This document shows, in pieces, positions 34,372 to 50,911 of a stretch of DNA of 64,000 nt. Made by a program: the position numbers and the translations under genes. Origin of the DNA: Asticcacaulis biprosthecium C19 (GTDB lineage Bacteria > Pseudomonadota > Alphaproteobacteria > Caulobacterales > Caulobacteraceae); contig NZ_GL883077.1 in assembly GCF_000204015.1 (NCBI RefSeq), forward strand, positions 163,833 to 227,832, in the 5' to 3' direction. The number at the start of each line of letters is the position of its first letter. The stretch's first letter is position 1. The notes beneath the pieces were generated by a model that was given only the letters and a program-made list of their open reading frames with translations, was not told the DNA's origin and did no database searches.

Positions 34372-35310
34372 TTACGCGGCGCTCTTTAAGGCCTCGGGCT
34401 GGACCCGGGCGATCAGGGCGGTGAGCTCCGCGACCTCGGCTTCGCTGAGATCGCTCAGCGGCGTGCGCACCGGACCGGCCGGCCGACCGATCACCTGCAT
34501 GCCCGCCTTGACGATGGAGACAGCGTAGCCCTTGCCCTTGTTGCGAAGGGCAATGTACGGCATGACAAAATCGCGCAGACCGGTCAGGACCGCCTGCTGG
34601 TCTTCCGCGCGCACCGCGTTGTAGAAGCCCAGCGCCCAGTCCGGCAGGAAGTTGAAAATGGCCGAGGAATAGGTGGTCACGCCCATCTTCAGATAAGGCG
34701 CGGCGAAGGTTTCCGCCGTCGGCAACCCGCCGATATAGGTCAGGCGGTCCCCCATGCGGGTGAAGATGCGGGTCATCAGCTCGATATCGCCGACCCCGTC
34801 CTTGTAGCCGACCAGGTTGGGATTGCGGTCACACAGGCGCGCCAGGGACTCGTCTTCGATAATGCCATTGTCGCGGTTGTAGACAATGACACCCAGCTTC
34901 GTCGCTTTACAGACGGCATCGATATGGGCTTCGAAGCCGTCCTGCTTGCCGCTGATCAGATAGGGCGGCAACAGGAGGATGCCATCGGCGCCGCTCTGCT
35001 GCGCTGACTGGGCCAGTTCGATGGCGATCTGGGTTCCGTACCCGCAGCCGGCCACCACCGGCACCTTGCCGCGTGTTTCCACCACGGCGGCAGCCACGAC
35101 ATCGCGGACTTCGGTCAGGCTCAGCGAAAAGAACTCCCCCGTGCCGCCGGCGGCGAACAGGCCGGCCAGGGGCTTTTCCAGCATCCAGGCGCAGTGGTCG
35201 CGATAGGGGGCTTCGTCGAAGCGGTTATTGGCATCGAAGTGGGTCACCGGGAAGGACAGCAGCCCCGTACCAATCGTATGCGCCATCTCCTTGGGGCTGA
35301 ACCCTGCCAT
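34372..35310 (-). CDS. kdgD: 5-dehydro-4-deoxyglucarate dehydratase
   Basis: A 312-residue member of the DHDPS/NAL TIM-barrel family. KdgD dehydrates and decarboxylates 5-keto-4-deoxyglucarate to 2,5-dioxopentanoate (alpha-ketoglutarate semialdehyde) in oxidative glucarate/galactarate or galacturonate breakdown. [18 protein letters not shown] at the N-terminus is typical of KdgD. The Schiff-base lysine is in [10 protein letters not shown] and the catalytic Tyr is in GVIVYNRDN. It is divergent from an MFS transporter of the glucarate/hexuronate class. The downstream semialdehyde dehydrogenase is not in the window. Confidence 0.9.
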
Positions 35311-35539: not shown

Positions 35540-36862
35540 ATGACCCCGTCCGATGCGATCCCCGCACCAAAACCGTCTTACGCCCGCTACTGGCTGATCG
35601 CGCTTTTGTTCGTCATCACGACCATCAACTATGCCGACCGATCGACCTTCTCCATCGCCGGTTCGGCGGCGTCGGAAGCGCTGAACCTGTCGCCGGTCCA
35701 GATGGGGTTTATTCTGTCGGCCTTCGGCTGGGCCTATGTCGCCGCCCAGGTGCCGGGCGGCGCCTTGCTGGATCGCTTCGGCGTCAAACGTGTCTATATC
35801 GGCGCCATTGTCCTGTGGTCGATCTTCACCGCCCTTCAGGGTTTCGTCGGCTTTATCGGCGGATTGTCGATCGTGGGGTCTTTGTTTGCCCTGCGATTCC
35901 TGGTCGGCTTGGCCGAGGCGCCATCGTTTCCCGGCAATGCTCGTATCGTCGCCGCCTGGTTCCCGGCGGCAGAACGCGGCACCGCCTCTGCCATCTTCAA
36001 TTCGGCGCAGTATTTCGCGCTGGTCGCCTTCGCGCCGCTGATGTCGTGGCTGGTGCATGATTTCGGCTGGCGCAGCGTCTTTTTCTTCATGGGCGGGCTG
36101 GGCATCATTGCCGCGATGGTCTTCGCAAAATTCATCACCGGTCCGGACAAGCACCCGATGGTCAATGGCGCTGAGCTCCAGGTTATCCAGGCCGGCGGCG
36201 CCGTTAGCATGGAGGCCCGCGTCGCCGGTACCAAGGGCGGCTTCAGCCTGGCGCGGCTGAAGTTCCTGCTGACCAACCGCATGCTGCTGGGCATCTATCT
36301 GGCCCAGTACTGCATCAACGTCCTGACCTATTTCTTCGTCACCTGGTTCCCGATCTACCTGGTCAAGGAACGCGGGCTGAACATCATCCAGGCCGGTTTC
36401 GCCGCCGCCGCCCCGGCCCTTTGCGGCTTTATCGGCGGCCTGGCCGGGGGCATCATCTCCGACTACCTGCTGAAAAAGACCAACAATATAAGCCTGGCGC
36501 GCAAGATCCCGATCTTCATCGGCATGGCGCTGGCCCTGGCCATCATTCCCTGCGCCTGGGCCGGCCAGGAATGGGTGGTCATCGCGCTCATGGCGGTCGC
36601 CTTCTTCGGTAAAGGTATCGCCTCACTGGGCTGGGCCGTGGTGTCGGACGTGTCGCCGAAGGAGTTCATCGGCCTGACCGGCGGGGTGTTCAACATGTTC
36701 GGCAATGCCGCGGGGATCGTCACCCCGATCGTTATCGGCTATATCGTTGCGGCGACCGGTTCGTTCGACGGCGCCCTGATCTATGTAGGCATCCATTGCG
36801 TGGTGACCATGCTGGCCTTCGGGCTGATCACCGGTAAGATCGCCCGCCTGAAGATCGACTGA
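35540..36862 (+). CDS. MFS transporter, anion:cation symporter type
   Basis: A 440-residue major facilitator with about 12 membrane segments. The opening RYWLIALLFVITTINYADRSTFSIAGS and the GWAYVAAQVPGGALLDRFG segment are characteristic of the ACS family, which includes glucarate, galactonate and hexuronate importers. Divergent pairing with kdgD supports glucarate or galactarate uptake. An exported enzyme-like gene follows after 7 bp. Confidence 0.88.
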   Translation: MTPSDAIPAPKPSYARYWLIALLFVITTINYADRSTFSIAGSAASEALNLSPVQMGFILSAFGWAYVAAQVPGGALLDRFGVKRVYIGAIVLWSIFTALQGFVGFIGGLSIVGSLFALRFLVGLAEAPSFPGNARIVAAWFPAAERGTASAIFNSAQYFALVAFAPLMSWLVHDFGWRSVFFFMGGLGIIAAMVFAKFITGPDKHPMVNGAELQVIQAGGAVSMEARVAGTKGGFSLARLKFLLTNRMLLGIYLAQYCINVLTYFFVTWFPIYLVKERGLNIIQAGFAAAAPALCGFIGGLAGGIISDYLLKKTNNISLARKIPIFIGMALALAIIPCAWAGQEWVVIALMAVAFFGKGIASLGWAVVSDVSPKEFIGLTGGVFNMFGNAAGIVTPIVIGYIVAATGSFDGALIYVGIHCVVTMLAFGLITGKIARLKID

Positions 36863-36869
36863 GGCCGCC

Positions 36870-38705
36870 ATGATCCACCGTCGCGCCCTGCTGCTCAGCG
36901 CCTGCGCCGCTGCCGTCGCCCTGCCGGCCCGCGCTTCCGCCGTCGTCATCGATACCCCGATGCCGCCGCCCGACTGGGCGCTGCTGCAGCGCGAGGCCCT
37001 GCGGGTACAAAGCGAAGCCGTCGAGGCGTTTTACGGCAAGTATTTCGACGACCGTGGCTATTTCCAGTGTTTCGAACGCTGGGGCGCCAATGACGGGCCG
37101 GACGATGCCATCGAGAACTGCAATGACTGGCCACACCTGCATGCCCTGGGCGGGTCCGACCGCGTGCTGGAGCTGTACAAACGCGCCTGGGAAGGCCATC
37201 TCAAGCAATATACCGAGGCGCGAACCGTCGAGACGCCGATCGCGCGGGACGGCATGTATCATCGCGAATTCCCGGTGATGAACGACTGGCAGCACCTGTC
37301 GGAAGGGCTGTCGGTGTTCAACATCATGGGACTGTCCGACCCGCACGACGCGAAGTTTCAGGACCGCGCTCGCCGCTTTGCCGGATTTTATACCGGCGAG
37401 GACAGGCATGCGCCAAACTATGACCGCAAGCGCAAGCTGATCCGGTCGATGATCAACGGTTCCAAGGGGCCGATGTTGCGCAAGGCGACCGCCTTGGACT
37501 GGGCCGGCGATCCGTTCGATCCGTCGGGCTTCTTCATGGAGCACGGCGAATCGACCTATCAGGAAACCCTGGATCACTATGTCGACTATACCGATGTCGT
37601 TGGCGACAGCCCGCTGAACCTTCAGGCGACCGGCCTGGTGATGAACGCCTACATGATCGCCGGCGAGCGCAGGTACCGCGACTGGATCACCAACTATCTC
37701 GATGCCTGGATCCAGCGGGCAAAGGCCAATGGCAATGTCTTGCCCAGCTTCGTCGACCTGAAGGGACGGATCGGCGGCCGCAAAAAGCAGTGGTACGGCA
37801 ATGTCTATGGCTGGGGCTTTTCGCCGATCGACCCGACCACTGGCAAGCGCGAAGACCGCAACCGCGTCCCGCGTGCCATCGTCGCTTTTTTGAACGCCTA
37901 TGCGCTGACCGGCGACGACAAATACCTTCAGGTTTGGCGCGACCAGACCGACGCCATCAATGCCCAAGCGCGCACGGTGGATGGCGTGGTCCAGACCCCG
38001 ACCATGTACGGCCCCAAGGGCTGGTACAGCTATAAGCCCGGCCTTTACCGAACGAACGGTCTGGACATCTGGTACATGTCGATGCGGGCGACCGATCTGG
38101 CCCGCGCTGACAGCGATCATCCGTGGGTCAACTACCTGCAAGGGCGCAATCCCGGTTATCCGGCGGCAGCTTTCCGCGACACGCTGGAGGCCGTGCGCAG
38201 AAGAATGGATGTGCTGAGCAAGGACACAACCACGCGCGAGACGCGGCTGGCCGATGCCCTGTTGAAGTATAATCCGGCGACGGTCACGCCGTTGCTGCAT
38301 TTGATGTGCGGCGCCATTCACATCGCGCGGCCGCCGTGGTCGAAGACATCACCCGCCCAAGGCGGCGCACTGTTGTATGCCCGGCTGCGCTACTTCGATC
38401 CGGTACGCAAACGGGCCGGCATTCCTGAGGACGTCGCGGCTCTGGTCAGCGCCTTGTCGGATGAAGCGACGACAGTGACTCTGGTCAATACCCATCCGTT
38501 CCGTACACGGACGGTTGTCGTCCAGGCCGGCGGTTATGGCGAGCATCAGTTTACTGGTATGGCGGTTGGCGGGGTGGAGACGACGCTGGGCGCCAATCAG
38601 GTGAGCCTGGACCTGGCTCCGGGTTGCGGCGCTGAGGTGCGGTTCCGCCACCGCCGCCATGTCAATGCGCCAACCCTGCTGATGCCGTGGGATCGAGTGG
38701 CCTAA
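36870..38705 (+). CDS. Exported large enzyme-like protein, possible alpha/alpha-toroid
   Basis: A 611-residue protein with signal peptide MIHRRALLLSACAAAVALPARASA. The body is rich in Trp, Tyr, His and Asp patches typical of helical-toroid carbohydrate-active enzymes: ENCNDWPHLHALGG, PVMNDWQHLSEGL, MEHGESTYQETLDHYVDYTD, YGNVYGWGFSP and GPKGWYSYKPG. A beta-rich tail follows (about residues 530-600). I cannot name the family. With KdgD and the MFS importer next door it may release a uronate or sugar acid from a polymer. The stop overlaps the convergent SDR stop (TAA at 38703-38705 and TAG at 38702-38704). Confidence 0.65.
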   Translation: MIHRRALLLSACAAAVALPARASAVVIDTPMPPPDWALLQREALRVQSEAVEAFYGKYFDDRGYFQCFERWGANDGPDDAIENCNDWPHLHALGGSDRVLELYKRAWEGHLKQYTEARTVETPIARDGMYHREFPVMNDWQHLSEGLSVFNIMGLSDPHDAKFQDRARRFAGFYTGEDRHAPNYDRKRKLIRSMINGSKGPMLRKATALDWAGDPFDPSGFFMEHGESTYQETLDHYVDYTDVVGDSPLNLQATGLVMNAYMIAGERRYRDWITNYLDAWIQRAKANGNVLPSFVDLKGRIGGRKKQWYGNVYGWGFSPIDPTTGKREDRNRVPRAIVAFLNAYALTGDDKYLQVWRDQTDAINAQARTVDGVVQTPTMYGPKGWYSYKPGLYRTNGLDIWYMSMRATDLARADSDHPWVNYLQGRNPGYPAAAFRDTLEAVRRRMDVLSKDTTTRETRLADALLKYNPATVTPLLHLMCGAIHIARPPWSKTSPAQGGALLYARLRYFDPVRKRAGIPEDVAALVSALSDEATTVTLVNTHPFRTRTVVVQAGGYGEHQFTGMAVGGVETTLGANQVSLDLAPGCGAEVRFRHRRHVNAPTLLMPWDRVA

Positions 38706-39466
38706 CCCGCCGTCCAGCCGCCGTCGACCATGACCGAACTGCCTGTCATCAGGGTCGAAGCGTCCGACGCCAGCAGCAAAAGTGCGCCACTCAGTTCATC
38801 CATGCGGCCGAGACGCCCGAGCTTTATCCGGCTCAGCACAAAATCGCGCGTGCCCGGCGTGTCCAGGATCGGCCGCGTCAGGGCCGTATCAATAAAGGTG
38901 GGGCAGATCGTATTGACCCGGATGCCCTGGGTTGCCAGGTCGATGGCCATACAGCGCGTCAGGCCTTCCAGCCCCCATTTCGAAGCGCTGTAGAGACAGC
39001 GTCCAGCGCCACCGACATGGCCCATCTGGGACGAGACATTGATGATCGAGCCCGGACGACCGGCGGCGATCAGGCCGTTTGCCACGGCCTGGGCCACGAA
39101 CAAGGCCGCCTTCAGGTTCAGGTCCAGCACGGCGCCGTAGTCGTCTTCGGTAATGTCCGTGATCGGACGAATGCGGTTGGTGCCGGCATTGTTCAACAGG
39201 ATGTCGAACGGTCCACGCGCCGCGATCTCCGTCTGCATGCGTGGAATATCGCCGACATCGAGCGCGAAAGCCTCGGCTTCGAAACCGGCCGCGCGGATCT
39301 CGGTCGCCACGGCCTCGACCTCGTCGGCGGACCGGGCGCACAGGGTGACCTTGGCGCCCGCCTGGGCAAAGATCGCCGCCGCCGAAGCGCCGATGCCGCG
39401 CCCCGCTCCGGTGACCAGGGCGGTTTTGCCGTCCAGCCGGAACGAGGGTAGCGGCGGCAGGCTCAC
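38702..39466 (-). CDS. Short-chain dehydrogenase/reductase
   Basis: A 254-residue SDR. The cofactor loop is [10 protein letters not shown], followed by NNAGTN, the catalytic Ser in NVSSQMG and the YxxxK pair in CLYSASKWG. The start is GTG at 39466 overlapping the thiolase stop (GTGA). It is the last gene of the SDR-thiolase-SDR operon and probably oxidises a hydroxyacyl or alcohol intermediate; the substrate is unknown. Its 3' end overlaps the convergent neighbour by 4 bp. Confidence 0.9.
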
Positions 39467-40641
39467 GGGAAGACCTCAAACAGGCCGGCCGCGCCCATGC
39501 CGCCGCCGACGCACATGGTGACGACGACATAGCGGACACCGCGGCGGCGGCCTTCGATGAGGGCGTGGCCGACCATGCGCGCACCCGACATGCCGTAGGG
39601 ATGGCCGATCGAAATCGCGCCGCCATTGACGTTCAACTGTTCCGCCGGAATGCCCAACCGGTCGCGGCAATAGATAACCTGGACAGCGAAGGCTTCGTTC
39701 AACTCCCACAGGCCAATATCGTCCATCGACACGCCGAACTTTTGCAGCAGGCGCGGAATGGCGAAGACCGGGCCGATGCCCATCTCGTCGGGCTTGGTGC
39801 CCGCCACTGCCATGCCGACATAGCGGCCTAACGGGTGTAAACCCCGGCGCTCGGCCAGGCTGGCCTCCATGACCACGCAGGCCGAGGCGCCGTCGGATAA
39901 TTGGCTGGCATTGCCGGCGGTGACCGTTCCGCCAGGGAGGGCGGTTTTCAGAGCGGCCAGGCCTTCGGCGGTCGTATCAGCGCGGGCACCTTCATCGCGG
40001 CTCAGGGTGATTTCGCGTTGGCTGGTTTTGCCGGTCGTCTTGTCGGTGACCTGCATGGTGGCGGTCATCGGCACGATCTCGGCATCGAAACGGCCGGAGG
40101 TCTGCGCCGCGGCGGTGCGTTGCTGCGATTCCAGGGCATAGGCGTCGCAGGCCTCTCGGGTTATGCCGTAACGCGCGGCGACGATTTCGGCCGTTTCCAG
40201 CATCGGCATGTAGGCGTCGGCCTGCATCGCGGCCAAAGCTGGGTCGGCATCGATGCGCAGGGCTGGCGTCTGGACCTGGGAGATGGATTCGACCCCGCCG
40301 GCGACGACGATATCCATGCGGTCGACAATGACCTGCTTGGCTGCCGTGGCGATGGTCATCAGGCCCGATGAACATTGCCGGTCGAGCGTCATGCCGGGGA
40401 CGTCGACCGGGAAGCCGGCCCTAAGCGCCGCCATCCGGCCGATGGTCTGTTGGGAGCCCTGCGGCAGAGAGCAGCCCAGGATACAGTCCTCGATCTGCGC
40501 GGCGTCGATGCCGGCGCGCGCCACCGCGGCCGTCAAGGCATGGGCGGCCAGGGTGGGCGAGGGGGTCAGGTTGAACGCGCCGCGATAAGCCCGCCCGATC
40601 GGGGTGCGGGCGGTGGCGACGATGACGGCTTCTCGGTTCAT
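39463..40641 (-). CDS. Thiolase (acetyl-CoA acyltransferase)
   Basis: A 392-residue thiolase. The nucleophile Cys is in [10 protein letters not shown] near residue 91, with GGVESIS, the His in [13 protein letters not shown] and the second catalytic Cys in [11 protein letters not shown]. It cleaves beta-ketoacyl-CoA. It overlaps the neighbouring SDR genes at both ends (39463-39466 and 40638-40641), so the three are a tight operon. In this setting it is probably the last step of side-chain or fatty-acyl oxidation. Confidence 0.93.
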
Positions 40642-41531
40642 TTCGCCATCACCTCATCGGCGGAGGTCAGGCCGGCGCTCAAGACTTCGCGTTCGGCCTG
40701 GAAGAAGCCGTAGGCTGGGACGAAGTCGCCACCGCGGTCGGAAATGCCGTCCCATTGGGCGATGGCCTGTTCGCCGGCATCGTTGGCTGCGCCGATAAAC
40801 CGGCCCTGCGACAGGGTGATTTCGGCGCGAGCGAAATGGCCGGCGCCGGCGCAGACAATGGCGCGGGTGGGGGCTTCGTCGCGGACCAGAGGCAGCAGGG
40901 CCGGGCTGACGCGGGACGGATCGAGCAGGTCCAGGCTGGCGGCAGACAGGACGGCGCGCGTCATCTGCGTGGCGGCTGAGGGCGCCAGGGCATTGACCCG
41001 GATGTTGTATTTTTCGCCTTCGATGGCCAGGGTCTGCATCAGCCCGACCACGCCCATCTTGGCCGCGGCATAGTTGGCCTGGCCGAAATTGCCGTACAGA
41101 CCCGACGACGAGGTGGTCATGACAATGCGGCCATAGCGCTGCGCGCGCATGATGTCCCAGACGGCCTTGGTGCAGATGACGGCGCCCATGACGTGCACGT
41201 CCAGCACCAGGCGGAAATCGTCCAGGGTCATCTTGGAGAAGCTCTTGTCGCGCAGAATGCCGGCATTGTTGACCAGAATGTCGATACGGCCCCAACAGTC
41301 CATGGCTTGATCGACCAGGGACGCGATGGCGGCTTCGTCGGTGACCGAAGCGGCAATGGCGATGGCCTCGCCACCGGCGGCGGTGATTTCGGCGGCGACC
41401 GCGTCTGCGGCAGCCTGGGTGAGGTCGTTGACGACTACCTTGGCGCCCTGCCCGGCCAGATATAGGGCATGGGCCCGGCCCAATCCTCCGCCCGAGCCGG
41501 TCACAATGGCCACGCGTCCTTGAAGCAACAT
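40638..41531 (-). CDS. SDR of the multifunctional 3-hydroxyacyl-CoA dehydrogenase type
   Basis: A 297-residue SDR resembling the dehydrogenase domain of MFE-2 type enzymes. It has [42 protein letters not shown] (a hallmark of this class), [20 protein letters not shown] (catalytic Ser, Tyr, Lys) and the [10 protein letters not shown] segment. It probably oxidises a 3-hydroxyacyl-CoA before the thiolase. ATG 41531 follows GAGG with 7 nt spacing. It is first in its operon; the TetR-type palindrome at 41764-41788 lies upstream. Confidence 0.88.
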
Positions 41532-41577
41532 GCATTATCCTCCGAATATTCTGTGACTCCGCTTACGTCCTCCTCCC

Positions 41578-41735
41578 CTGTTTACGGGGGAGGTGGATCA
41601 TGGCGTAGCCATGAGACGGAAGGGGCTATTCCACTGACAGTAAGCCCCACCCACGGCTTCCTTGCGCTTCGAGCGCAATTCGCTCTTCGCTCACCCCCCT
41701 CCCCGCAAGCAGGGAGGGAGAAGAAAGATTTTATC
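41578..41735. repeat. Dispersed intergenic repeat, about 150 bp
   Basis: TGTTTACGGGGGAG and the following about 130 bp match, in reverse orientation, the sequence at about 57860-58007: shared words include TTCCACTGAC, CTTCCTTGCG, GCGCAATTCGCTC and GACGGAAG. The distal end (CCCTCCCCGCAAG then AGGGAGGGAGAAGAAAG) matches the CTCCCC/GGGGAG repeats elsewhere. It was not assigned to a known element. Confidence 0.7.
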
Positions 41736-41763
41736 CAACCACTGAAAGTCTATATCATTTTTT

Positions 41764-41788
41764 ATTCACTCACAAGAGAGCGAGTGTT
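41764..41788. promoter_or_regulatory. Predicted TetR operator, copy 1 (upstream of SDR-thiolase operon)
   Basis: On the minus strand this reads AACACTCGCTCTCTTGTGAG and then TGAAT, and agrees in 21 of 25 positions with 49558-49582 upstream of the TonB receptor operon. Internally it is an inverted repeat, CACTCAC-N6-GCGAGTG. The position, upstream of the SDR operon and beside the tetR gene, fits an operator. Confidence 0.65.
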
Positions 41789-41820
41789 TATTTCGTAGTC
41801 TGGCAGGGATGTGCCGGCCT

Positions 41821-42498
41821 CTATCGCTTCTGGCAGATGGCCAGGAATCCCGCCGCCATAAAGGCTGCCATGCGCTTTTTCACCGCCACGAAGTCGTCGG
41901 ATTTACACAGTCCTCCCGACAGCTTGTCGATGCGGCCGGTCCGCGCCAGGGTCAGCAGCAGCGCACCCGTCACAAAGTGATAGCCCCAGAAAATGTCCTC
42001 TTCGGCGCAGTCGGGAAGGGCCTTTTTTAGCAACCCGATCAGGCGCAGCACCACCGGATCGAAATGCTTGTCCATCAGTTCCGCGCCCCATTCCGGGGTG
42101 TTGGCGACCTGAGCGCCCAGGGCGGCATAGTTCTTCCAGCTCTCTCCGCCCTCGATATAGAGGTCGAGGTCGGTATCCAGAAAGGCGTGCAGCGCCCCTT
42201 CGATAGTCGGCTTGCCGTTGGTGGCGGTATCGTATTCGTCAAGCGCCGTCATCCGCCGTTCGCTGGTCACCGAAGCCCGGCGCGCAAACACGGCGTCGAA
42301 CAGCTTCTTCTTGTCCTCGAAATAGTAGTTCAGCAGGGTGTGGTGCACCCCTACCCGTTGGGCGACATCCTTGAGCGTCACGCCATACAGGCCGTGTTTG
42401 GAAAACAGGTGTTCGGCCGCGTCGAGGATCTGCTCGATCATATCGGCGCGTTGTTCAGCCTTGGTACTGCGGCGTTTGGGTTTGATATCTTCTGGCAC
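41821..42498 (-). CDS. TetR family transcriptional regulator
   Basis: A 225-residue TetR regulator. The N-terminal helix-turn-helix is IEQILDAAEHLFSKHGLYGV followed by TLKDVAQRVGVHHTLLNYYFEDKKKLFDAVF. The C-terminal ligand domain resembles regulators of fatty-acid or aromatic catabolism only in general. The start is GTG at 42498. It lies between the two catabolic operons on the same strand. The shared 25-bp palindrome in front of both operons is the obvious candidate for its site; the ligand might be an acyl-CoA or a pathway intermediate. Confidence 0.9.
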   Translation of the reverse strand: MPEDIKPKRRSTKAEQRADMIEQILDAAEHLFSKHGLYGVTLKDVAQRVGVHHTLLNYYFEDKKKLFDAVFARRASVTSERRMTALDEYDTATNGKPTIEGALHAFLDTDLDLYIEGGESWKNYAALGAQVANTPEWGAELMDKHFDPVVLRLIGLLKKALPDCAEEDIFWGYHFVTGALLLTLARTGRIDKLSGGLCKSDDFVAVKKRMAAFMAAGFLAICQKR

Positions 42499-42542
42499 GC
42501 TTCACTTTTCCGCCTTTGCCGGGCCAAGGTCAAGTCATGACC

Positions 42543-42706
42543 GCTAGTGGTCCGATTCCAACATTTGCTTCGCGCTTTCCGCTTACGCCGGGCAAATGTT
42601 GGAATCGAAAGACCACTAGCCACTTTATGACTGAAGTGGAGCTTTGAATTTGACGTTTGAACAAGCGTAGCGGCGAGTCGGATTCAAACGTCAAATTCGC
42701 TCCACT
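42543..42706. repeat. Paired long hairpins
   Basis: Hairpin 1: GCTAGTGGTCCGATTCCAAC plus ATTTGC (42543-42568) pairs with 42592-42620, with a small bulge. Hairpin 2: AGTGGAGCTTTGAATTTGAC plus GTTTGAA (42635-42661) pairs with 42683-42706, also bulged. Both have loops containing GCGTAGCGGCG or CGCTTTCCGCTTACGCCG, so they look like two members of one repeat family. The right arm of hairpin 2 supplies the last codons of the acyl-CoA ligase gene. They probably end its transcript. Confidence 0.7.
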
Positions 42707-44262
42707 AGGCCATACTCGCTTCGCAGGCGTATCTTATCGATCTTACCGGTAGATGCCAGAGGCATGTTCGGTACACGGACGACTTCGTCGGGGATCCACC
42801 AGCTTGCCACACGGCCTTTCAGCGGCGCCAGAAGGGCTTCGTCGGTCAGGGCCTGGTCGTCGCGCATCTCGACCAGCAGGACCGGGCGTTCACCCCATTT
42901 CGGGTCGGAACGGCCGATGACCGCCGCCAGCGAAACTTCGGGCAGGGCGCCGACCACGGCTTCGATTTCGGCCGGATTGATCCATTCTCCGCCCGACTTG
43001 ATCAGGTCCTTGGCGCGGCCGGTGATCATCAGATGGCCGTCGTCATCGATGCGCGCCAGGTCGCCGGTAGCGAACCAGCCATCGGCATCCGTGGCGCAGT
43101 GGTCGTGGCCGAAATAGCGTTCGATCACCGCAGCGCCGCGCACCCGCAGATGGCCATCGACACCGCGTTGTTGCGGCAGGGCGCGGCCTTCGGCATCGGT
43201 GATCAGCAGGTCGACCCCGATGGCAGGACGGCCGGACAGGGCCGCCTGGCCCGGATCGCCAGGTGCCGCCACCGTGCCCGACGGTGACAGCTCGGTCATG
43301 CCCCAACTGGTCTGGACGATGACGCCCAGGCGATCCTGTACGCGTTCCATCAGGGCCGGAGCCAGGGGCGCGCCGCCCATGATGATGCGTTTCAGGCTGG
43401 GGAGGTCGCCGCCTTCGGCTTCCAGGTGTTCGACCAGGCCCAGCCATACCGTCGGCACGCCGACGGCCACCGTGACATCTTCCTGGCGGATCAGGCGTGC
43501 CAGACTGGCGCCGTCGGAATGGCGACCGGGCAGGACCAGTTTCCCGCCCACGGCCGGGACAGCGAAGGGCAGGCCCCAGGCGCTGGCGTGGAACATCGGC
43601 ACGACCGTCAGGACGTTGTCGCGGCCGGATAACGCCATGACATCGGTTTGCAACAGGCGCAGGGTGTGCAGGAAGCTGGAGCGATGGGTGTAGGTGACGC
43701 CCTTGGGTGCGCCGGTCGTGCCCGAGGTAAAACACAGCCCCGACGGCGCGGTTTCGTCAAACCCGCCCCAGGGATGGTGGTCGGGCGTGGCGGTGATCAT
43801 GGCCTCGAACGAATGGCCGGCCTCGGCCGGACCATCAATGACCAAAAGGCGTTGCAAGCCCGGCACGCGGGCCGCCACCTGGCGGGCCAACGGCATCAGG
43901 TCGGCGCTGATGATGGCGATGCTGGCGCCGGACTGTTCGACCATGGCGGCCAGTTGCGTCGCCGTCAGACGCGGGTTCAGGGTATGGCATACCGCGCCCA
44001 TGCCCATGATGGCGTACCAGACCTCGACATGGGCCTGGCTGTTCCAGGCCAGGGTGGCAACCTTGGCGCCCAGTCCCACGCCCAGCCCGGCCAGGACGGT
44101 TGAGATACGCCGGCTGCGGTCGTGCAGCCCGGCATAGCCGATACGGTCGGTGCGGCCGCCGTCACGGGCGGTGACGACTTCGGCGCGGGGATGCCACTTG
44201 GCGGCGTGCGTCAGGAACTGATCGAGCGTCAGCGGGTACGCCTGCATGGAACCGTCGAGCAT
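42691..44262 (-). CDS. AMP-dependent acyl-CoA synthetase/ligase
   Basis: A 523-residue adenylate-forming enzyme from ATG 44262, which overlaps the esterase stop (TGATG); ATG 44268 is an alternative. Motifs: FTSGTTGAPKGV (A3), SWGMTELSP, DGWFATGDLARID and ITGRAKDLIKSGGEW, and the C-terminal catalytic Lys in LASTGKIDK. It resembles medium/long-chain fatty acyl-CoA ligases. It is last in the TonB receptor-MFS-esterase-ligase operon and probably activates the acid released by the esterase. The extreme 3' end lies within a hairpin repeat. Confidence 0.92.
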   Translation of the reverse strand: MLDGSMQAYPLTLDQFLTHAAKWHPRAEVVTARDGGRTDRIGYAGLHDRSRRISTVLAGLGVGLGAKVATLAWNSQAHVEVWYAIMGMGAVCHTLNPRLTATQLAAMVEQSGASIAIISADLMPLARQVAARVPGLQRLLVIDGPAEAGHSFEAMITATPDHHPWGGFDETAPSGLCFTSGTTGAPKGVTYTHRSSFLHTLRLLQTDVMALSGRDNVLTVVPMFHASAWGLPFAVPAVGGKLVLPGRHSDGASLARLIRQEDVTVAVGVPTVWLGLVEHLEAEGGDLPSLKRIIMGGAPLAPALMERVQDRLGVIVQTSWGMTELSPSGTVAAPGDPGQAALSGRPAIGVDLLITDAEGRALPQQRGVDGHLRVRGAAVIERYFGHDHCATDADGWFATGDLARIDDDGHLMITGRAKDLIKSGGEWINPAEIEAVVGALPEVSLAAVIGRSDPKWGERPVLLVEMRDDQALTDEALLAPLKGRVASWWIPDEVVRVPNMPLASTGKIDKIRLRSEYGLVERI

Positions 44263-45893
44263 CAGCATCCCGCCTTTTCGGGCAAGGGTGGAGAGACGAC
44301 GCCGACATTCCAGTTCCACGCCGTGTCACCACGGGCGCGGCGGCGGCACACCACCTCTTCGTTCAGTTCGTACATGCCGGGCAGCAGATGGGTCCTGGCG
44401 ACGGGTGTCGCTTCGAAGGCCATATAGGATTTGTCGGCGCCGTAAGCGTTCCAGGCCGGTTGGCCGGCGGCCGAGGGGACGCCATCGCGCACGAACGATG
44501 CCCAATAGCCCATCACGGCATCGGAAAAGGCGGCTTCTTCCGGTGTCAGGACGACCTTGGGCCACAGGGCCGGCGTCGTGGCGTGGGTGCCGAAGACATA
44601 AGGAATTTCGCTGGCGTGGAAGGCGTGAAGGCCTGCCGCTTCGGCGGCGGGATACCCGCGGTCGAAATAGTAGAGATACGCCGATTGACCGGCCGTCGTC
44701 GTTTTGAGCGCCAGACGTTCAGCGGTCCAGCCATAGAGGGCGTCGCGGGTGGTGGCGAGCAGGCTTTCGGGGATGTTGGACGACGGGTATTGCGCCAGGA
44801 AGGCCTCGGCCAGCTCGCCGTAACGTTCTTTCACGGCGGCGATGTAGTCGGCTTCGGTCGCCGGGGCCGGCGGCGCCAGGAAGCGCAGCGAGCGGATCTC
44901 GCCGCTGTTGAAGCCGACCAGGATCGGCACCGGCGCCTGTTCGCCGCGATCGAAGACCTCGACCAGCTGACGCGGCAGGACACGGCCGTCGACGGTGCCG
45001 AACGGCAGGTAGCCCTTGGTGGGGGCTTGGTTGGTCAGGGTTTCGGCGTCCATACCGCGCAGGGCGGCCAGATCCTTGGCGCCCAGTTGCGATTGCAGCC
45101 ACACCCCGATGGCTTCGGCGGGTTCGGAACCGTAGCGCTTGGCCTTCAGTTCCGGCGTCGAAATCATATAGGCGCTTTGCAGGATCGCCTTGTGGAACAG
45201 GCCACTCGCCGGCGGTGAGGCCAGCAGGTACATGACGCTCAAGCCACCGGCCGATTCCCCGGCGATGGTGACATTGCCGGCGTCGCCGCCGAAGGCTGCA
45301 ATGTTGCGCTGGACCCAGCGCAGGGCCTCGATCTGGTCCATCAGGCCGTAATTGCCCGAGATGTTGTAGGGCGATTCCGAGCTCAGCTGCGGATGAGCCA
45401 GGTAGCCCAAGACGCCCAGGCGGTAGTTGATCGACACGACCACAATGCCCTGTTTGGCCAGGGCGGCGCCGTCATACATGGCTTCATGGCTGTAGCCGCC
45501 GGTCAGAGAGCCGCCGTGAATCCACACCATGACGGGGGCGTTCTTGGCATTTTCCGGCGCCCAGACGTTCAGGCTCAGGCAGTCTTCGCTCATGCGCTCG
45601 GGCGGGTTGGCATAGATGCTGGCCACACGCGGCTTGGGCTGATAGCAGGCCGGGCCGAACTGCGACGCATCGCGGACGGTCTTCCACGGCTTTGCGGCGA
45701 CCGGGGCCTTCCAACGGCGCCAACCGATGGGCGCCTGGGCATAGGGCAGGCCGCGATAGATGTTCAGGCCGTCTTCGGTGATGCCTTTGACGGGGCCAGC
45801 CAAAGACTTAACAACCGGCGCCTTGACCACAGGCTCGGCGAACGCGGCCGGGGCGAAGAACAGGGCAAGCGCAGGGAGGAGGAACTTGATCAT
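44262..45893 (-). CDS. Secreted type-B carboxylesterase
   Basis: A 543-residue carboxylesterase with signal peptide MIKFLLPALALFFAPAAFA. Motifs: NIYRGLPYAQAPIGWRRWKAP, EDCLSLNVWAP, WIHGGSLTGGYS (oxyanion region) and the nucleophile elbow GESAGGLS near residue 215. It is about the same length as the esterase at 25833 and a distant paralogue of it. The start overlaps the MFS stop by 4 bp. In this operon it should hydrolyse the imported ester in the periplasm. Confidence 0.92.
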   Translation of the reverse strand: MIKFLLPALALFFAPAAFAEPVVKAPVVKSLAGPVKGITEDGLNIYRGLPYAQAPIGWRRWKAPVAAKPWKTVRDASQFGPACYQPKPRVASIYANPPERMSEDCLSLNVWAPENAKNAPVMVWIHGGSLTGGYSHEAMYDGAALAKQGIVVVSINYRLGVLGYLAHPQLSSESPYNISGNYGLMDQIEALRWVQRNIAAFGGDAGNVTIAGESAGGLSVMYLLASPPASGLFHKAILQSAYMISTPELKAKRYGSEPAEAIGVWLQSQLGAKDLAALRGMDAETLTNQAPTKGYLPFGTVDGRVLPRQLVEVFDRGEQAPVPILVGFNSGEIRSLRFLAPPAPATEADYIAAVKERYGELAEAFLAQYPSSNIPESLLATTRDALYGWTAERLALKTTTAGQSAYLYYFDRGYPAAEAAGLHAFHASEIPYVFGTHATTPALWPKVVLTPEEAAFSDAVMGYWASFVRDGVPSAAGQPAWNAYGADKSYMAFEATPVARTHLLPGMYELNEEVVCRRRARGDTAWNWNVGVVSPPLPEKAGC

Positions 45894-47182
45894 GACGGTT
45901 CACCGGTAGGAGTCAGGCCGTGTTTGCGCAAAGATCCGGCCAGGACCATGAACAGGACGGCGGCCAGCACATAGAAGGGCACCAGCGTGTAAAAAGCCAG
46001 TTGCAGCGAATGATCGGGCGAGACGGCGCGCAGCCAGTCGGAAGCGGCGCCAAGATAGGTCGGCCCCAGCCCCAGGCCGATCAGGTTCATGACCAGCAGC
46101 AGCAGGGCACCGGACATGACGCGTTGGTGCGGGGCGACGGCTTCCTGGACCAGGGCGACGGCGGGGGACAGATAGAAGTAGTTGAAGACCATCGGCCCGA
46201 TCAGGAACAGGATGGCGGTCTGCCAGTCGGGCGCGTGGACGAAGCCGATGAACGGCGGAATGGCGCACAGCAGGCCGATGGCCGGGATCCAGGCATAGGC
46301 CGACTTGGCGCGCGGGGCAAAGGTGTCGACCAGCCGGCCGGAGATGATCATGCTGGCGCTCATGCCGAGCCCGACGACCAGGGCATACCAGACGGCGACA
46401 TCGGGCAGGGCCATGTCTTTTTCGCGCATCAGCAACAGGGTGGTGAAGTTGAGCGAAGCGTAGGTGACGAACTGGACCGCGCCGCAGGCCAGGGCCGTCA
46501 GCACCAGGACCGGGCGCGAGAAGAACATCCGCAGGGTCGGCCAGAAGCCGGCCTTTTCCGTCGGGGCAACCGTAACCTTATCGAGGCCGCCACGCTTGGG
46601 TTCGCGCACGGTGAGAAACACGACCAGGGCCATGACGATGCCAACGATGCCCAGCACGATAAAGGCGTAGCGCCAGCTATAGGCGGCGGCAATCGAGGCG
46701 CCAAAGGCCACACCCAAAGCCTGACCGACTGGCGGCCCCAGGTTAAACAGGCCAAAGGCAAGGCCACGGCTGCGCGACGCGAAATAGTCCGAGATGATGG
46801 CGTAGGACGGCGGCACCCCGCCGGCCTCCCCTACCCCCACCGACATGCGGGCGGCGACCAATTGCGGATAGTTGGCCGACAGACCGCAGGCGACGGTGGC
46901 AGCGCTCCACAGGCCGCAGGCCAGAGCGACCACCTTGGTGCGGTTGGTCCGGTCGGCCAGCCAGCCGACCGGGATGGAGATAAAGCAGTAGAAGACCGCG
47001 AAATAGAGGCCGGAAATCATCCCCAACTGCCCGTCGCTCACGCCCAGCTCGTCCTGGATCGGCTTGGCCAGTATGGACAAAAGCTGACGATCCAGGAAGT
47101 TCAGGACATAGACCAGGAACAGGACGAACAGCACGAACCAGGCATAGCCGGCCGGTTTCGTCGTTTGGGGACTCATCTCCAT
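45890..47182 (-). CDS. MFS transporter, spinster-like type
   Basis: A 430-residue transporter with about 12 membrane segments. FLDRQLLSILAKPIQDELGVSDGQLGMISGLYFAVFY at the N-terminus and SVGVGEAGGVPPSYAIISDYF are typical of the spinster-like MFS proteins that accompany TonB receptors in sphingomonads and Caulobacter. It starts 2 bp after the receptor stop and overlaps the esterase start. It could move either the ester product across the inner membrane or another pathway compound. Confidence 0.9.
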   Translation of the reverse strand: MEMSPQTTKPAGYAWFVLFVLFLVYVLNFLDRQLLSILAKPIQDELGVSDGQLGMISGLYFAVFYCFISIPVGWLADRTNRTKVVALACGLWSAATVACGLSANYPQLVAARMSVGVGEAGGVPPSYAIISDYFASRSRGLAFGLFNLGPPVGQALGVAFGASIAAAYSWRYAFIVLGIVGIVMALVVFLTVREPKRGGLDKVTVAPTEKAGFWPTLRMFFSRPVLVLTALACGAVQFVTYASLNFTTLLLMREKDMALPDVAVWYALVVGLGMSASMIISGRLVDTFAPRAKSAYAWIPAIGLLCAIPPFIGFVHAPDWQTAILFLIGPMVFNYFYLSPAVALVQEAVAPHQRVMSGALLLLVMNLIGLGLGPTYLGAASDWLRAVSPDHSLQLAFYTLVPFYVLAAVLFMVLAGSLRKHGLTPTGEPS

Positions 47183-47184
47183 GG

Positions 47185-49482
47185 TCAGAAGTCCGCCACC
47201 AGACGCACACCCACCGTCCGCGGCGTCAGGCGGGCATAGCGGCTGGTGAAGAAGGTTTCCGGGTGGACATAGACCACGGAGTCGCTGTTGGTCAGGTTTT
47301 CGACATAGAAGCCGACGGTATAGTTATCCATGGCGATGGCCAGGGTGGTGTTCACCAGGGTGTAGGCGTCGGTATAGTCGAAGGTCGGCATGGGCACGGT
47401 CGGCTTGCCCGGGGTGTTGGGGAAGGTGTTGGGGAATTCACCGACGTGGGAGATGGCCAGCGACCAGTTGGCGCGGGCCTTGGGCGTCAGGTCCCAGGCA
47501 TAGTTGACATAGGCCGTTCCCTGGAATTTCGGGCTCGACAAGGGCGTTCCCAAAACGGCGCCGGAATAGGCGGCTTCCTGGGCGGTCAGCTTGTCGACTT
47601 CGGACTTATTGACAGAGCCGTTCAGCCCGATGACAAGGCCGCGTCTGGGATACGCATGCAGCTCCCATTCCAGGCCCTGGCTGGTGGCGCCGCCGATATT
47701 GGTGGCGAACTGGACACCGTCGGAGACGCGGTTGGCCTGGACCTGGATGTTGCGCCAGTCGATCCGGTAGAGCGCCAGGCTGCCACCCAGCTTGCCGCCG
47801 AACCAGCGGCCCTTGGCCCCCAACTCGTAGTTGGTCAGGTCGTCGGAATCGGCGCCGTCGGGAATGATCAGGTCGTTCGGATCGGTCAGGCTGACCCGGC
47901 CGGCCAGGGCGTTGATCACCGGTGTGCGGAAGCCCGTCGACACCGCCGCATAGGTGGTCAGATTGTCATGGGGCTTATAGGACAGGCTGAGGCGATAGGA
48001 CGGCTTTTCGCCCTTGGCTTCGCGGCCGGTCGCGGTCGGGGTGGCGACGCGGTTGAGGTAGCCGGTATTGCCTGGGAAGACATAGCCGGCCGCGCCATAA
48101 AACGCGTAGGTGTAGTAGTTGGGCGCAGAGAAACCGCCGGCATCGGTAAAGCCCTGGGCCGACAGGCTGCCGTAGCGCAGGCCGCCTGACACCCATAGTT
48201 TGTCCGAGAAGCGATAGGTCAGGTCGCCATAGATGGCCGTTTCCTTGGAATCTGCGTGGCTGTAATCCATCAGGTAATATTCACCCTCGGTATTACGGAT
48301 GTTGTAGGTGGTCAGGAAGTCCTGGCGCGAACGCAGGAAATATTCGAGATATTGCCGGCGTTCCAGGTAGAAGCCGCCCAGAACCCAGTCGAATTTTCCG
48401 CCCGGATCGGAGACCAGGCGCGCTTCCTGGACGACGGTGCGGCGATAGCCATAGGCGTCCAGGCCGAACGGAATGGCGCCGCCAAACGTGCCAGCCAGGT
48501 CGACCACGAACTTCTGGTCGAAGTTCGAATAGTTGCTGGAGCTCATGAACTTGGCGCCGTCGAACTGATAGTCGACGGTGACATTGTAAGAGGTGAATTT
48601 TCCGGTGAACAGGTCGGGCTTGTCCGAGATCTTGACGTACTTGCCCAGGTTCGGGCTGGTCATGCCGGAATCCTGCGGATTGCTGTTCTCGTGCGAGGCG
48701 GTGGCGCGGATCGACAGGCGCTCGGTCGGCTTCCACATCAAGCTGACGCGGCCGCCGGTATCGATCAGCGAATTGGCCTTTTCGGTCCCCGTGCCGATAT
48801 TGGTGATGTAGCCGTCCTCATCGCGGTGGAACAGCACGGCGCGCAGGGCCAGCTTGCCGTCGACCAGGGGGACATTGACCATGGCGTTGTAGCGCTGACG
48901 CCAGGACCCGTTGCCGCGCACGGCGACGTCGCCCAGCACCGAGGCTTCGAATTCGCTCAGGTTCGGCGCCTTGGTGATAATGCGCAGCGCGCCGGCCAGC
49001 GAGCCTGAGCCGAAGAGGGTGCCTTGCGGTCCGCGCAGAAACTCGACTCTTTCGACATCGAACAGGTTTGGGTCGATATTGGTGGTGTTGCCGTTGGCAT
49101 TGATCGGCTGTTCGTCGATATAGATGGCGACCGCGCTTTGCAGACCGGCGCCATAGCCGGAATTGGTCGCCACGCCGCGGGCGGTGAAGTAGTTGAAATT
49201 GGCGCTGGGGCGGTTCAGCACCACGCCGGGGGTCTCGCGACCCAGGCCTTCGAAGCCGACTATGCCCTTGGCGGTCAGGTCCTTTTGCGAAAAGCTGGTG
49301 ACCGAGATCGGCACGTCCTGGGCCTTTACGGCGCGACGGGTCGAGGTGATGACGACGGCATTGTCGTCGTTGGCGGCGGCGGCATCGTCAGCCGGCGCGT
49401 CCTGGCTTAAGGCGGGTGAAGCGATGGCCACGCTGGCGGCCAGGGCGGCGGCGCAGGCCGTCCGCAAAAGAAGTCCCTTCAT
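47185..49482 (-). CDS. TonB-dependent outer-membrane receptor
   Basis: A 765-residue receptor. It has signal peptide MKGLLLRTACAAALAASVAIASPALSQ, a TonB-box-like AVVITSTRR, a plug domain (DVPISVTSFSQKDLTAKGI, ERVEFLRGPQGTLFGSGSLAGALRIITKAP) and a beta-barrel ending in ...GVRLVADF with C-terminal Phe. The class without siderophore-specific features is common for uptake of hydrophobic or sugar substrates. It is first gene of the uptake/esterase operon; the 25-bp predicted TetR operator is 76 bp upstream of the ATG. Confidence 0.95.
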   Translation of the reverse strand: MKGLLLRTACAAALAASVAIASPALSQDAPADDAAAANDDNAVVITSTRRAVKAQDVPISVTSFSQKDLTAKGIVGFEGLGRETPGVVLNRPSANFNYFTARGVATNSGYGAGLQSAVAIYIDEQPINANGNTTNIDPNLFDVERVEFLRGPQGTLFGSGSLAGALRIITKAPNLSEFEASVLGDVAVRGNGSWRQRYNAMVNVPLVDGKLALRAVLFHRDEDGYITNIGTGTEKANSLIDTGGRVSLMWKPTERLSIRATASHENSNPQDSGMTSPNLGKYVKISDKPDLFTGKFTSYNVTVDYQFDGAKFMSSSNYSNFDQKFVVDLAGTFGGAIPFGLDAYGYRRTVVQEARLVSDPGGKFDWVLGGFYLERRQYLEYFLRSRQDFLTTYNIRNTEGEYYLMDYSHADSKETAIYGDLTYRFSDKLWVSGGLRYGSLSAQGFTDAGGFSAPNYYTYAFYGAAGYVFPGNTGYLNRVATPTATGREAKGEKPSYRLSLSYKPHDNLTTYAAVSTGFRTPVINALAGRVSLTDPNDLIIPDGADSDDLTNYELGAKGRWFGGKLGGSLALYRIDWRNIQVQANRVSDGVQFATNIGGATSQGLEWELHAYPRRGLVIGLNGSVNKSEVDKLTAQEAAYSGAVLGTPLSSPKFQGTAYVNYAWDLTPKARANWSLAISHVGEFPNTFPNTPGKPTVPMPTFDYTDAYTLVNTTLAIAMDNYTVGFYVENLTNSDSVVYVHPETFFTSRYARLTPRTVGVRLVADF

Positions 49483-49557
49483 GCGTTATCTCCCATCAGC
49501 GCCGATCATTCACGCCGGGCTGTTAGGCTCAACATGCGCCGGATTTGGGGGCTTGTC

Positions 49558-49582
49558 AACACTCACTCTCTCGCGTGTGAAT
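49558..49582. promoter_or_regulatory. Predicted TetR operator, copy 2 (upstream of TonB receptor operon)
   Basis: AACACTCACTCTCTCGCGTG plus TGAAT matches the complement of 41764-41788 in 21 of 25 positions. The inverted-repeat form is CACTCAC-N6-GCGTGTG. The site is 76-100 bp before the receptor ATG, a plausible promoter position. Confidence 0.65.
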
Positions 49583-49606
49583 GTTATTGAATTTGATCTT
49601 TTCGAT

Positions 49607-49723: not shown

Positions 49724-50911
49724 ATGGATATATCCTATATGGAACCCATGGTGCCGGAAGAGGCCGTCCGGGCGCTTGAAGACGAGGTTGTCGACCTCAT
49801 CGCCGAAGCCAATCAGCTTGCCGGCAAGGTGCATCCGATTTTGCGCGACTCCATCGGAACGCTGGTCCGATCGATGAACTGTTATTACTCCAACCTGATC
49901 GAAGGTCACGACACCCATCCGCGCGATATCGATCGAGCGCTGGCCAACGACTTTTCGACGGAACCAAAGCGGCGGGAACTGCAACAGGAAGCCGTTGCGC
50001 ATATCTATGTCCAGGGCCTGATCGACGCCGGCGATGACCCGGATATCTGGCCGGCTTCGGCCGTCTATGCGTCATGGTTGCACCAGGCGTTCTGTGAACG
50101 GCTGCCGACGGAGATGCTGTGGGTGACGAATAAGGACACCGGCGAACGGCTGGAGGTCGTCCCAGGGCAATGGCGGACCCATGATGTTCAGGTCGGACGC
50201 CACGTCCCGCCGGAACCGGACGACCTGCCGCGCTTTATGGCGCGTTTCGAAAAGGCTTACGGCGCGGCGCCGCTCAACCGGTTGCGCCAGATCCAGACCG
50301 TCGGCGCGGTACACCATCGCTTTCTGTGGATACACCCGTTCCTGGATGGAAACGGCCGGGTGGCCCGCCTTATGTCTCACGCTTTGCTGAAACGTCTCGG
50401 CATTGGCACCAGTCTGTGGTCCGTCGCCCGTGGGCTGGCGCGGCAGGAAGGCCAATACAAAAGACTGCTGGATTGGGCGGATTCTCCGCGTCAAGGCGAT
50501 CGCGATGGACGGGGCAACCTGACCCAGCAGGGCCTGGTCGATTTCTGCAAATTCTTCCTCGATACGGCGATCGATCAGATCCGGTTTATGAAAGGCCTGC
50601 TGGAACCGGACTCGCTTCTGACCCGGATGGAAATCCATGTCGAAGAGGAAATTCGCGCCAAGCGGCTTCTGCGCGGCAGCTTCGCCGTTCTGCGCGAAGC
50701 CGTTCTGTCCGGAGAAGTAGAGCGGTCTAAGATTCCGGCCTTGACCGGCTACGAAGAACGCGGCGCCCGAAAAGTCACCGCAGCCTTGCTGGAAAAAGGC
50801 ATGCTGACAGCGGCATCCCACCGCGCGACTCTTCGCCTGGCCTTCCCGACGGATGTGGTCGAACGCTGGTTCCCCAATCTTTACCCTAGCAACGCTGGGA
50901 CGAGATCATGA
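49724..50911 (+). CDS. Fic family protein with inhibitory helix
   Basis: A 395-residue Fic-domain protein from ATG 49724; the frame continues far upstream into the receptor gene on the other strand, which is spurious. The catalytic motif is complete, HPFLDGNGRVAR (near residue 205), so AMP transfer or a related reaction is expected. The N-terminal segment YYSNLIEGHDT contains S-x-x-x-E-G, the inhibitory motif of class II Fic proteins, which have this helix at the N-terminus. A winged-helix-like C-terminal region follows (about residues 300-390). The target is unknown. It is divergent from the receptor operon and lies next to an AT-rich cassette. Confidence 0.88.
   Translation: MDISYMEPMVPEEAVRALEDEVVDLIAEANQLAGKVHPILRDSIGTLVRSMNCYYSNLIEGHDTHPRDIDRALANDFSTEPKRRELQQEAVAHIYVQGLIDAGDDPDIWPASAVYASWLHQAFCERLPTEMLWVTNKDTGERLEVVPGQWRTHDVQVGRHVPPEPDDLPRFMARFEKAYGAAPLNRLRQIQTVGAVHHRFLWIHPFLDGNGRVARLMSHALLKRLGIGTSLWSVARGLARQEGQYKRLLDWADSPRQGDRDGRGNLTQQGLVDFCKFFLDTAIDQIRFMKGLLEPDSLLTRMEIHVEEEIRAKRLLRGSFAVLREAVLSGEVERSKIPALTGYEERGARKVTAALLEKGMLTAASHRATLRLAFPTDVVERWFPNLYPSNAGTRS

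Follow-up and report, generated by a model that had tools for sequence, protein, structure and literature searches.

Do two neighboring operons that carry nearly the same palindrome in front of them answer to the single TetR-family gene that lies between them? The locus that raises this question is part of a 64,000-nucleotide stretch of Asticcacaulis biprosthecium C19 (contig NZ_GL883077.1, positions 163,833 to 227,832), here called the window; positions are those of the window unless another locus is named. An initial annotation, made from the letters of this DNA, had described a TonB receptor-MFS-esterase-ligase operon and a second operon composed of a thiolase gene between two short-chain dehydrogenase (SDR) genes, apparently joined by a shared 25-bp operator. 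The gene order was as described: the TetR gene lies between the ligase gene and the first SDR gene (SDR1), and it and the genes of the two operons, eight in all, are on the minus strand. We consider it probable that the locus is a local catabolic regulon in which one TetR-family repressor governs two operons for the uptake and catabolism of an ester and is released by a compound of the acyl-CoA type.

A palindrome shared by the two operons and linked to the TetR gene

According to the initial annotation, positions 41764-41788, upstream of SDR1, and 49558-49582, upstream of the receptor gene, match in inverted orientation. Both 25-bp sequences were found there, and the first is identical to the reverse complement of the second at 21/25 bases. 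A search of the window with the 20-bp core, allowing up to three mismatches, gave exactly two matches, against 0.03 expected from shuffles; none of 100 shuffles of the window yielded two. The 25-mer consensus, again with up to three mismatches, retrieved only these two sites from the whole 5.4-Mb genome (reversed control, 0), and the same two alone were returned by a profile search of the genome with model R1, even at an E value of ≤0.5. A motif that was frequent genome-wide without relation to the TetR gene would have spoken against a regulon, and with two matches in its own genome this one is not. A looser pattern, CACTCAC-N11-GTGAGTG with up to three mismatches, gave 30 forward matches in the genome versus 46 for its control; its spacing is wrong, and it was dropped as uninformative.

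Motif discovery was carried out on training loci comprising up to 20 kb around 31 TetR orthologues, using the 350-bp 5' flanks of homologues of the eight genes. When exact 5-mer dyads were counted de novo, without the motif of the initial annotation, TTCAC-N10-GTGAA ranked first with 10 of the 31 loci. The runner-up, the GC-rich CGGCG-N7-CGCCG, occurred in 7 loci, and the best dyad in each of 20 random-position controls occurred in 4 to 6. An iterative matrix, seeded by the two sites of the window and two others, collected 43 sites in 29/31 loci, one of them (in L065) weak at 10.8 bits, with the learned consensus aAtATTCAC.C.CgcGAgAGTGAgTgTTGACa. Above 12 bits, there were 42 sites per 29,235 flank positions versus 12 matches per 558,245 positions outside the flanks.

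Scanning genome contigs for relatives of the TetR gene yielded 474 stretches, the best 80 of which (80-97% identity) constitute the named loci. Seventy-five of these were held out; the other five come from the same genomes as training loci. A site scoring at least 15 bits on the position weight matrix (PWM) was present in 71/75 held-out loci, whereas the 30 column-permuted matrices used as controls averaged 0.5 loci and never exceeded 6. At 25 bits, 67/75 loci retained a site versus 0 for the permuted matrices. In all four site-less loci (L122, L128, L135, and L171), the contig starts only within or past the receptor gene and does not include its upstream region. The site stands ahead of the receptor gene in 57 of the 61 held-out loci having a receptor and ahead of SDR1 in 45 of 59, with both placements in 41 loci. 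The outcome that the initial annotation had named as fatal to its proposal, absence of the motif in front of orthologous operons, was therefore not observed. A separate Infernal search of all 80 loci gave 104 matches at E ≤ 0.05, some of which are one site counted on both strands. That the resemblance of the two intergenic sequences arose by chance might be argued from the small number of sites, just two in this genome. The shuffles, the whole-genome search, and the held-out loci all oppose this, and conservation in orthologous loci, which a coincidence would not predict, was found; we regard chance as practically negligible.

The motif scan proposed by the initial annotation was run on 149 genomes, its own and relatives. 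TetR orthologues of at least 69% identity occur in 27 of them (own included), with a clear gap to the paralogues at ≤53%. The site tracks the orthologue: with model R1 at E ≤ 0.05, it was found in 26/27 genomes with the orthologue versus 1/122 without it (Fisher p, 9e-27), and the sole exception (G021) is weak (E, 0.028). No site was found in any of the 30 genomes in which TetR is represented by paralogues of ≤50% identity alone. Within the genus itself (25 genomes, G000 to G024), the orthologue is restricted to G000 and G007; among named relatives, Asticcacaulis sp. AC460 comes closest (97% TetR identity). The 80 best loci belong mostly to Caulobacter, Phenylobacterium, Sphingomonas, and Sphingopyxis, and they also include Nitrospirillum, Azospirillum, Kordiimonas, Rhizobium, Aquibium, and Peristeroidobacter/Steroidobacter, the last of which are gammaproteobacteria.

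Sites also occur at a distance from the TetR gene. Six dispersed site regions outside the fetched loci were inspected, and four precede regulon-type genes. Those in G063 and G036 each precede an MFS orthologue, the genes behind the site in G109 are an MFS and an esterase gene, paired some 10 kb away from TetR, and those behind the site on contig C4 of G033 are a GH1 glycosidase gene and then an SDR2 orthologue at 80%. This glycosidase (L188:3706-5034) has an apparent export signal, and its place behind the site is a possible hint at a glycosidic ester. A thiolase homologue of G033 likewise has a site just upstream (L208).

Some loci carry further variants. Three Caulobacter loci (L116, L165, and L185) have two TetR copies each, the second at 72-74% identity and with a site ahead of it. 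In four loci (L137, L147, L149, and L166), three of the Steroidobacter type and one from Phenylobacterium, a TonB receptor of about 1,015 amino acids is encoded downstream of TetR and a site; in L147, a DUF3604 protein comes next. This receptor may be another kind of outer-membrane gate controlled by the regulator.

Operator anatomy and mode of control

The initial annotation had read each site as a palindrome with CACTCAC half-sites, which we read as CACTCRC-N6-GYGWGTG. The sites are indeed palindromic, but the axis so placed lies 2 bp off the conserved one. Among 116 held-out sites, a dyad axis at model position 14.5 gave 65.5% paired bases, the next-best axis (12.5) gave 48.8%, and the initial axis (16.5) did not rise above 40% and was replaced by 14.5. 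The operator is predicted to be a palindrome of about 28 bp, ideally AACATTCACTCTCG/CGAGAGTGAATGTT, that would serve as the site of a TetR dimer. Operator A (49558..49585, minus strand), ahead of the receptor operon, is an imperfect palindrome with 10/14 pairs, and operator B (41761..41788, plus strand), with 7/14 pairs, is the second site, between the TetR gene and the SDR1 operon.

Operator A runs into a probable promoter of the receptor operon, recognized from sequence at 49531..49559 (minus strand). It reads TTGACA-N17-CATGTT, with the -35 box at 49554-49559 and a weak -10 box at 49531-49536, and the -35 box overlaps the operator by its first two bases. This contact is conserved: TTGAC directly follows the dyad in 57/57 held-out receptor sites versus 1/45 SDR1 sites. 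In 62 strong held-out sites, CA at the -10 distance is conserved at 81%, and CANNNT at a spacing of 17 occurs in 27. Since SDR1 sites retain the dyad without TTGAC, the dyad rather than the promoter box is likely to be the mark of the regulator.

This bears on the suggestion that the motif belongs to some other regulator, or is itself a promoter element, and that TetR is merely linked to it. In its favor, the 32-bp motif includes a promoter element, TTGACA, and a TetR_C_7 gene recurs beside an RND efflux pump in some of the named loci, the recurring families of which were annotated in part. However, the dyad persists at SDR1 without the hexamer, the site is absent from 121/122 genomes without a TetR orthologue, and the TetR_C_7 regulator occurs in at most 8/80 loci. 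Moreover, in two Peristeroidobacter loci (L137 and L147), which have no ligase, MFS, esterase, or SDR1 orthologue nearby, sites flank the TetR gene on both sides, so that the site follows TetR where the enzyme genes are absent. We judge this explanation very unlikely. The pump and its own TetR_C_7-type regulator lie downstream of the cluster in 8/80 loci (examples are L141:17507-18142, L131:13073-16237, and L129:11672-13087) and were set aside as neighborhood rather than part of the regulon.

The position of operator A against the -35 box favors repression. The same sites could also be used by TetR as an activator or mixed regulator, and the operon 2 site, which lacks the hexamer in all but one of the 45 SDR1 cases, could sit upstream of a promoter; at operon 1, the site runs into the conserved -35 hexamer, a classical position for repression, and we hold activation to be improbable. 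Receptor and TetR genes are codirectional in 60/61 held-out loci, and in 45 held-out loci the MFS, esterase, and ligase genes lie between them on the same strand. TetR is therefore probably the last gene of operon 1 and autoregulated through site A.

Under the repressor reading, a TetR dimer would bind the palindrome of about 28 bp at two places, one abutting the -35 box of operon 1 (receptor, MFS, esterase, CoA ligase, and most likely TetR) and the other in front of operon 2 (SDR1, thiolase, and SDR2). Without substrate, both operons would be shut. The ester would enter via the TonB receptor, and the exported esterase would hydrolyze it in the periplasm; the MFS carrier would take the acid across the inner membrane, and the ligase would activate it. 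The acyl-CoA, or a product of it, would then release TetR, so that both operons and TetR itself would be induced. SDR1 is predicted to oxidize the (3R)-hydroxyacyl-CoA and the thiolase to cleave the resulting 3-ketoacyl-CoA.

Several observations count against this scheme. Model R1 was built from 35 sites of TetR-positive genomes, and the figure of 26/27 is partly circular on that account; the TetR-negative genomes and the held-out loci are free of this. One genome with the TetR orthologue (G067) has no site at E ≤ 0.5, its best PWM score in the TetR locus being 2.5. Two of the dispersed regions, in G021 and on contig C12 of G033, have no core gene, and the latter also has no PWM site. Fourteen of the 59 held-out SDR1 genes lack an above-threshold site. 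SDR2 orthologues were found in 6 of 20 relatives searched, and one of the six (L217, in G033) has a site of at least 20 in its 3.7-kb locus; for thiolase homologues (56-73% identity), 2/20 loci have such a site, namely L208 and L193, the one in L193 being that of SDR1. In the window itself, operator B is a less perfect palindrome than operator A, and about 230 nt separate it from SDR1. A simple consensus promoter scan listed the promoter of neither operon; that of the receptor operon was passed over because its -10 box is weak, CATGTT having a poor 3/6 consensus bases. Finally, the ligase and TetR genes are separated by 192 nt containing two inverted repeats, and TetR may have its own promoter there.

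The repeats in this gap are perfect 16-bp inverted repeats lying side by side (42553-42607 and 42646-42698), with loops of 23 and 21 nt. They do not match the operator and were discarded as operator copies. No second full copy of the stretch was found in the genome, two additional matches being the repeats themselves on the other strand. They could be attenuators or RNA-processing structures that separate TetR from operon 1.

Taken together, the shared palindrome ahead of both operons, its conservation before orthologous operons, and its absence from all but one of the genomes without the orthologue uphold the shared-operator regulon first proposed for this locus.

Gene content, pathway, and substrate class

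TetR is present in all 75 held-out loci, the ligase and the esterase in 64 each, the receptor in 61, SDR1 in 59, and the MFS transporter in 58; all six occur together in 44. SDR1 lies directly behind TetR in 54/59. A thiolase was found near TetR in 6 and an SDR2 in 1. The conserved core is therefore receptor, MFS, esterase, ligase, TetR, and SDR1, and thiolase and SDR2 are optional. The initial annotation had placed the enzymes in a chain of ester uptake, hydrolysis, CoA ligation, dehydrogenation, and thiolysis; the families make this plausible, but the thiolase is not a fixed member.

The receptor (47185..49482, minus strand, as for all genes below unless stated) has plug and beta-barrel domains (PF07715 and PF00593), and the MFS_1 transporter (PF07690) is encoded at 45890..47182. 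The next gene (44262..45893) encodes a type-B carboxylesterase, with a COesterase domain (PF00135) scoring 352.2 bits (cut-off, 27) and the GESAG serine motif as GESAGG; this motif and the apparent N-terminal signal peptide were read by eye from the translation. Its best PDB match is fumonisin B1 esterase (8s6d; E, 1.3e-80), a likeness of family, the type-B carboxylesterases, that gives no sign of fumonisin as the substrate. The acyl-CoA ligase (42691..44268; PF00501 and PF13193) is of the DmdB/long-chain type. The listed open reading frame starts at 44319, and the ATG at 44268, adjoining the esterase stop, is the likelier start. Its nearest solved structures are 6ihk and 1ult, and its best NCBIfam profiles (NF004674 and NF005426) both score below their cut-offs. 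The TetR-family gene, whose product would repress the two operons as well as its own synthesis, occupies 41821..42498 and is followed by SDR1 (40638..41531), an acetyl-CoA C-acyltransferase-type thiolase (39463..40641), and the FabG-like short-chain dehydrogenase SDR2 (38702..39466).

Among solved structures, the best sequence matches of SDR1 are (3R)-hydroxyacyl-CoA dehydrogenase domains of multifunctional enzyme 2 (MFE-2), with 211.3 bits against 1gz6 and 374.9 bits, summed over two such domains, against 2et6. The best 3-oxoacyl-acyl carrier protein reductase, 4rzh, is lower at 164.5 bits. SDR1 is a candidate (3R)-hydroxyacyl-CoA dehydrogenase. The scores also bear on the alternative that the CoA ester produced by the ligase is not what SDR1 and the thiolase work on, their substrate being instead the alcohol moiety of the original ester or some other compound. 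Short-chain dehydrogenases are broad in their substrates, SDR1 forms a separate unit, and a thiolase is near TetR in few held-out loci, all of which would fit that alternative; the higher scores to the MFE-2 domain argue against it, and we think it possible but on balance rather unlikely.

The cluster does not contain the acyl-CoA dehydrogenase and enoyl-CoA hydratase of a complete beta-oxidation cluster. Across 111 loci (including 5 genomes twice), a search with domains from the organism's own genome as queries at E ≤ 1e-8, by which distant enzymes could be missed, found 6 with an acyl-CoA dehydrogenase, 4 with an ECH hydratase, and none with a MaoC hydratase. Elsewhere in its own genome, there are 5 acyl-CoA dehydrogenase, 7 ECH hydratase, and 1 MaoC domain matches. 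Either these general enzymes supply the missing steps or the acid is already 3-hydroxylated. A 3-hydroxy-acid ester as substrate would accord with the absence of a conserved acyl-CoA dehydrogenase and hydratase: the periplasmic esterase would release the acid, the ligase would make 3-hydroxyacyl-CoA directly, and SDR1 would enter beta-oxidation at the third step, for which the cluster needs neither enzyme; the signal to TetR would be the (3-hydroxy)acyl-CoA. A regulon dedicated to esters of 3-hydroxy acids is a speculative proposal that we would not expect to hold. If true, it would imply widespread scavenging of 3-hydroxyacyl esters (oligomeric hydroxyalkanoates or esters of the glycolipid type, for example) by alphaproteobacteria and relatives of Steroidobacter.

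A second MFS gene and a DUF3089 gene (PF11288) each recur in 6/80 loci and are not core. The DUF3089 gene, whose product may be a second hydrolase, has regulon genes as neighbors: it follows the thiolase gene in L116 (12884-14083), stands between those for thiolase and SDR2 in L066 (2193-3386), and precedes SDR2 in L062 (5153-6178). In the window, the region beyond SDR2 (36870-38705) encodes a 611-amino-acid protein that seems to carry a signal peptide and matches no Pfam or NCBIfam family at 0.001; it adjoins genes for an MFS protein (35540-36862) and a 5-dehydro-4-deoxyglucarate dehydratase (34372-35310). On the other side, a plus-strand open reading frame with a Fic/DOC domain (PF02661; 49193-50911) adjoins the receptor gene. 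Its listed start falls inside that opposite-strand gene, and the real start is probably near 49725.

The operator and its regulator offer a handle on an uptake and catabolic module that is common to relatives of Caulobacter and Sphingomonas, Nitrospirillum, Kordiimonas, and relatives of Steroidobacter. The operator allows candidate regulon members, dispersed ones included, to be listed in any genome, and it could yield an inducible promoter for the genera that carry it. The esterase-ligase-SDR1 set defines a directly testable substrate class.

The regulator and related systems

The regulator belongs to the TetR family: its N-terminal helix-turn-helix domain (PF00440, TetR_N) scores 49.3 bits (cut-off, 24), and its C-terminal ligand domain (PF17939, TetR_C_30) scores 123.3 bits (cut-off, 26.3). 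The AlphaFold model is all helical (predicted local distance difference test [pLDDT], 90.1; predicted template modeling score [pTM], 0.82). Among solved structures, NicR2 and PA3006 are nearest by sequence, and a Foldseek search with the model ranked the same two first, NicR2 with a template modeling (TM) score of 0.78 (about 26% identity) and PA3006 with 0.62; lower-ranked matches include BkaR and FadR. Such matches of a predicted fold would not identify the ligand.

Catabolic regulons under TetR-family proteins are of a familiar kind. The initial annotation had suggested that this one may be undescribed, and searches of an open-access library gave no description of it; with subscription journals outside the scope of those searches, its newness is provisional.

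NicR2 (5fgl/5fhp) is the closest solved structure both by sequence (E, 1e-20) and by fold, and it too regulates a catabolic pathway, but a different one, the degradation of nicotine. PsrA, which we take to be the protein of the PA3006 structure (2fbq), has a similar fold, and its profile (NF053516) is the best NCBIfam match of the window regulator, which scores 64.9 bits against a PsrA cut-off of 300 and so falls outside that family. The PsrA operator is a palindrome of the GAAAC/GTTTC type, whereas the system described here is a local regulon of few operons with the operator TTCAC-N10-GTGAA. PsrA is reported to control fatty acid degradation (PMC5343134), and the same survey lists the TetR-family regulators PsrA, FadP, LiuQ, FabR, and RutR. 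In the available part of its text, none of these regulons is mentioned as having a TonB receptor, an esterase, a ligase, and an SDR under one TetR, unlike the window system, and the word "esterase" does not occur in the survey. What FadP, LiuQ, and the other TetR regulons in that part of the survey share with the present system is a TetR-family factor, a conserved operator, and genes for acyl-CoA catabolism.

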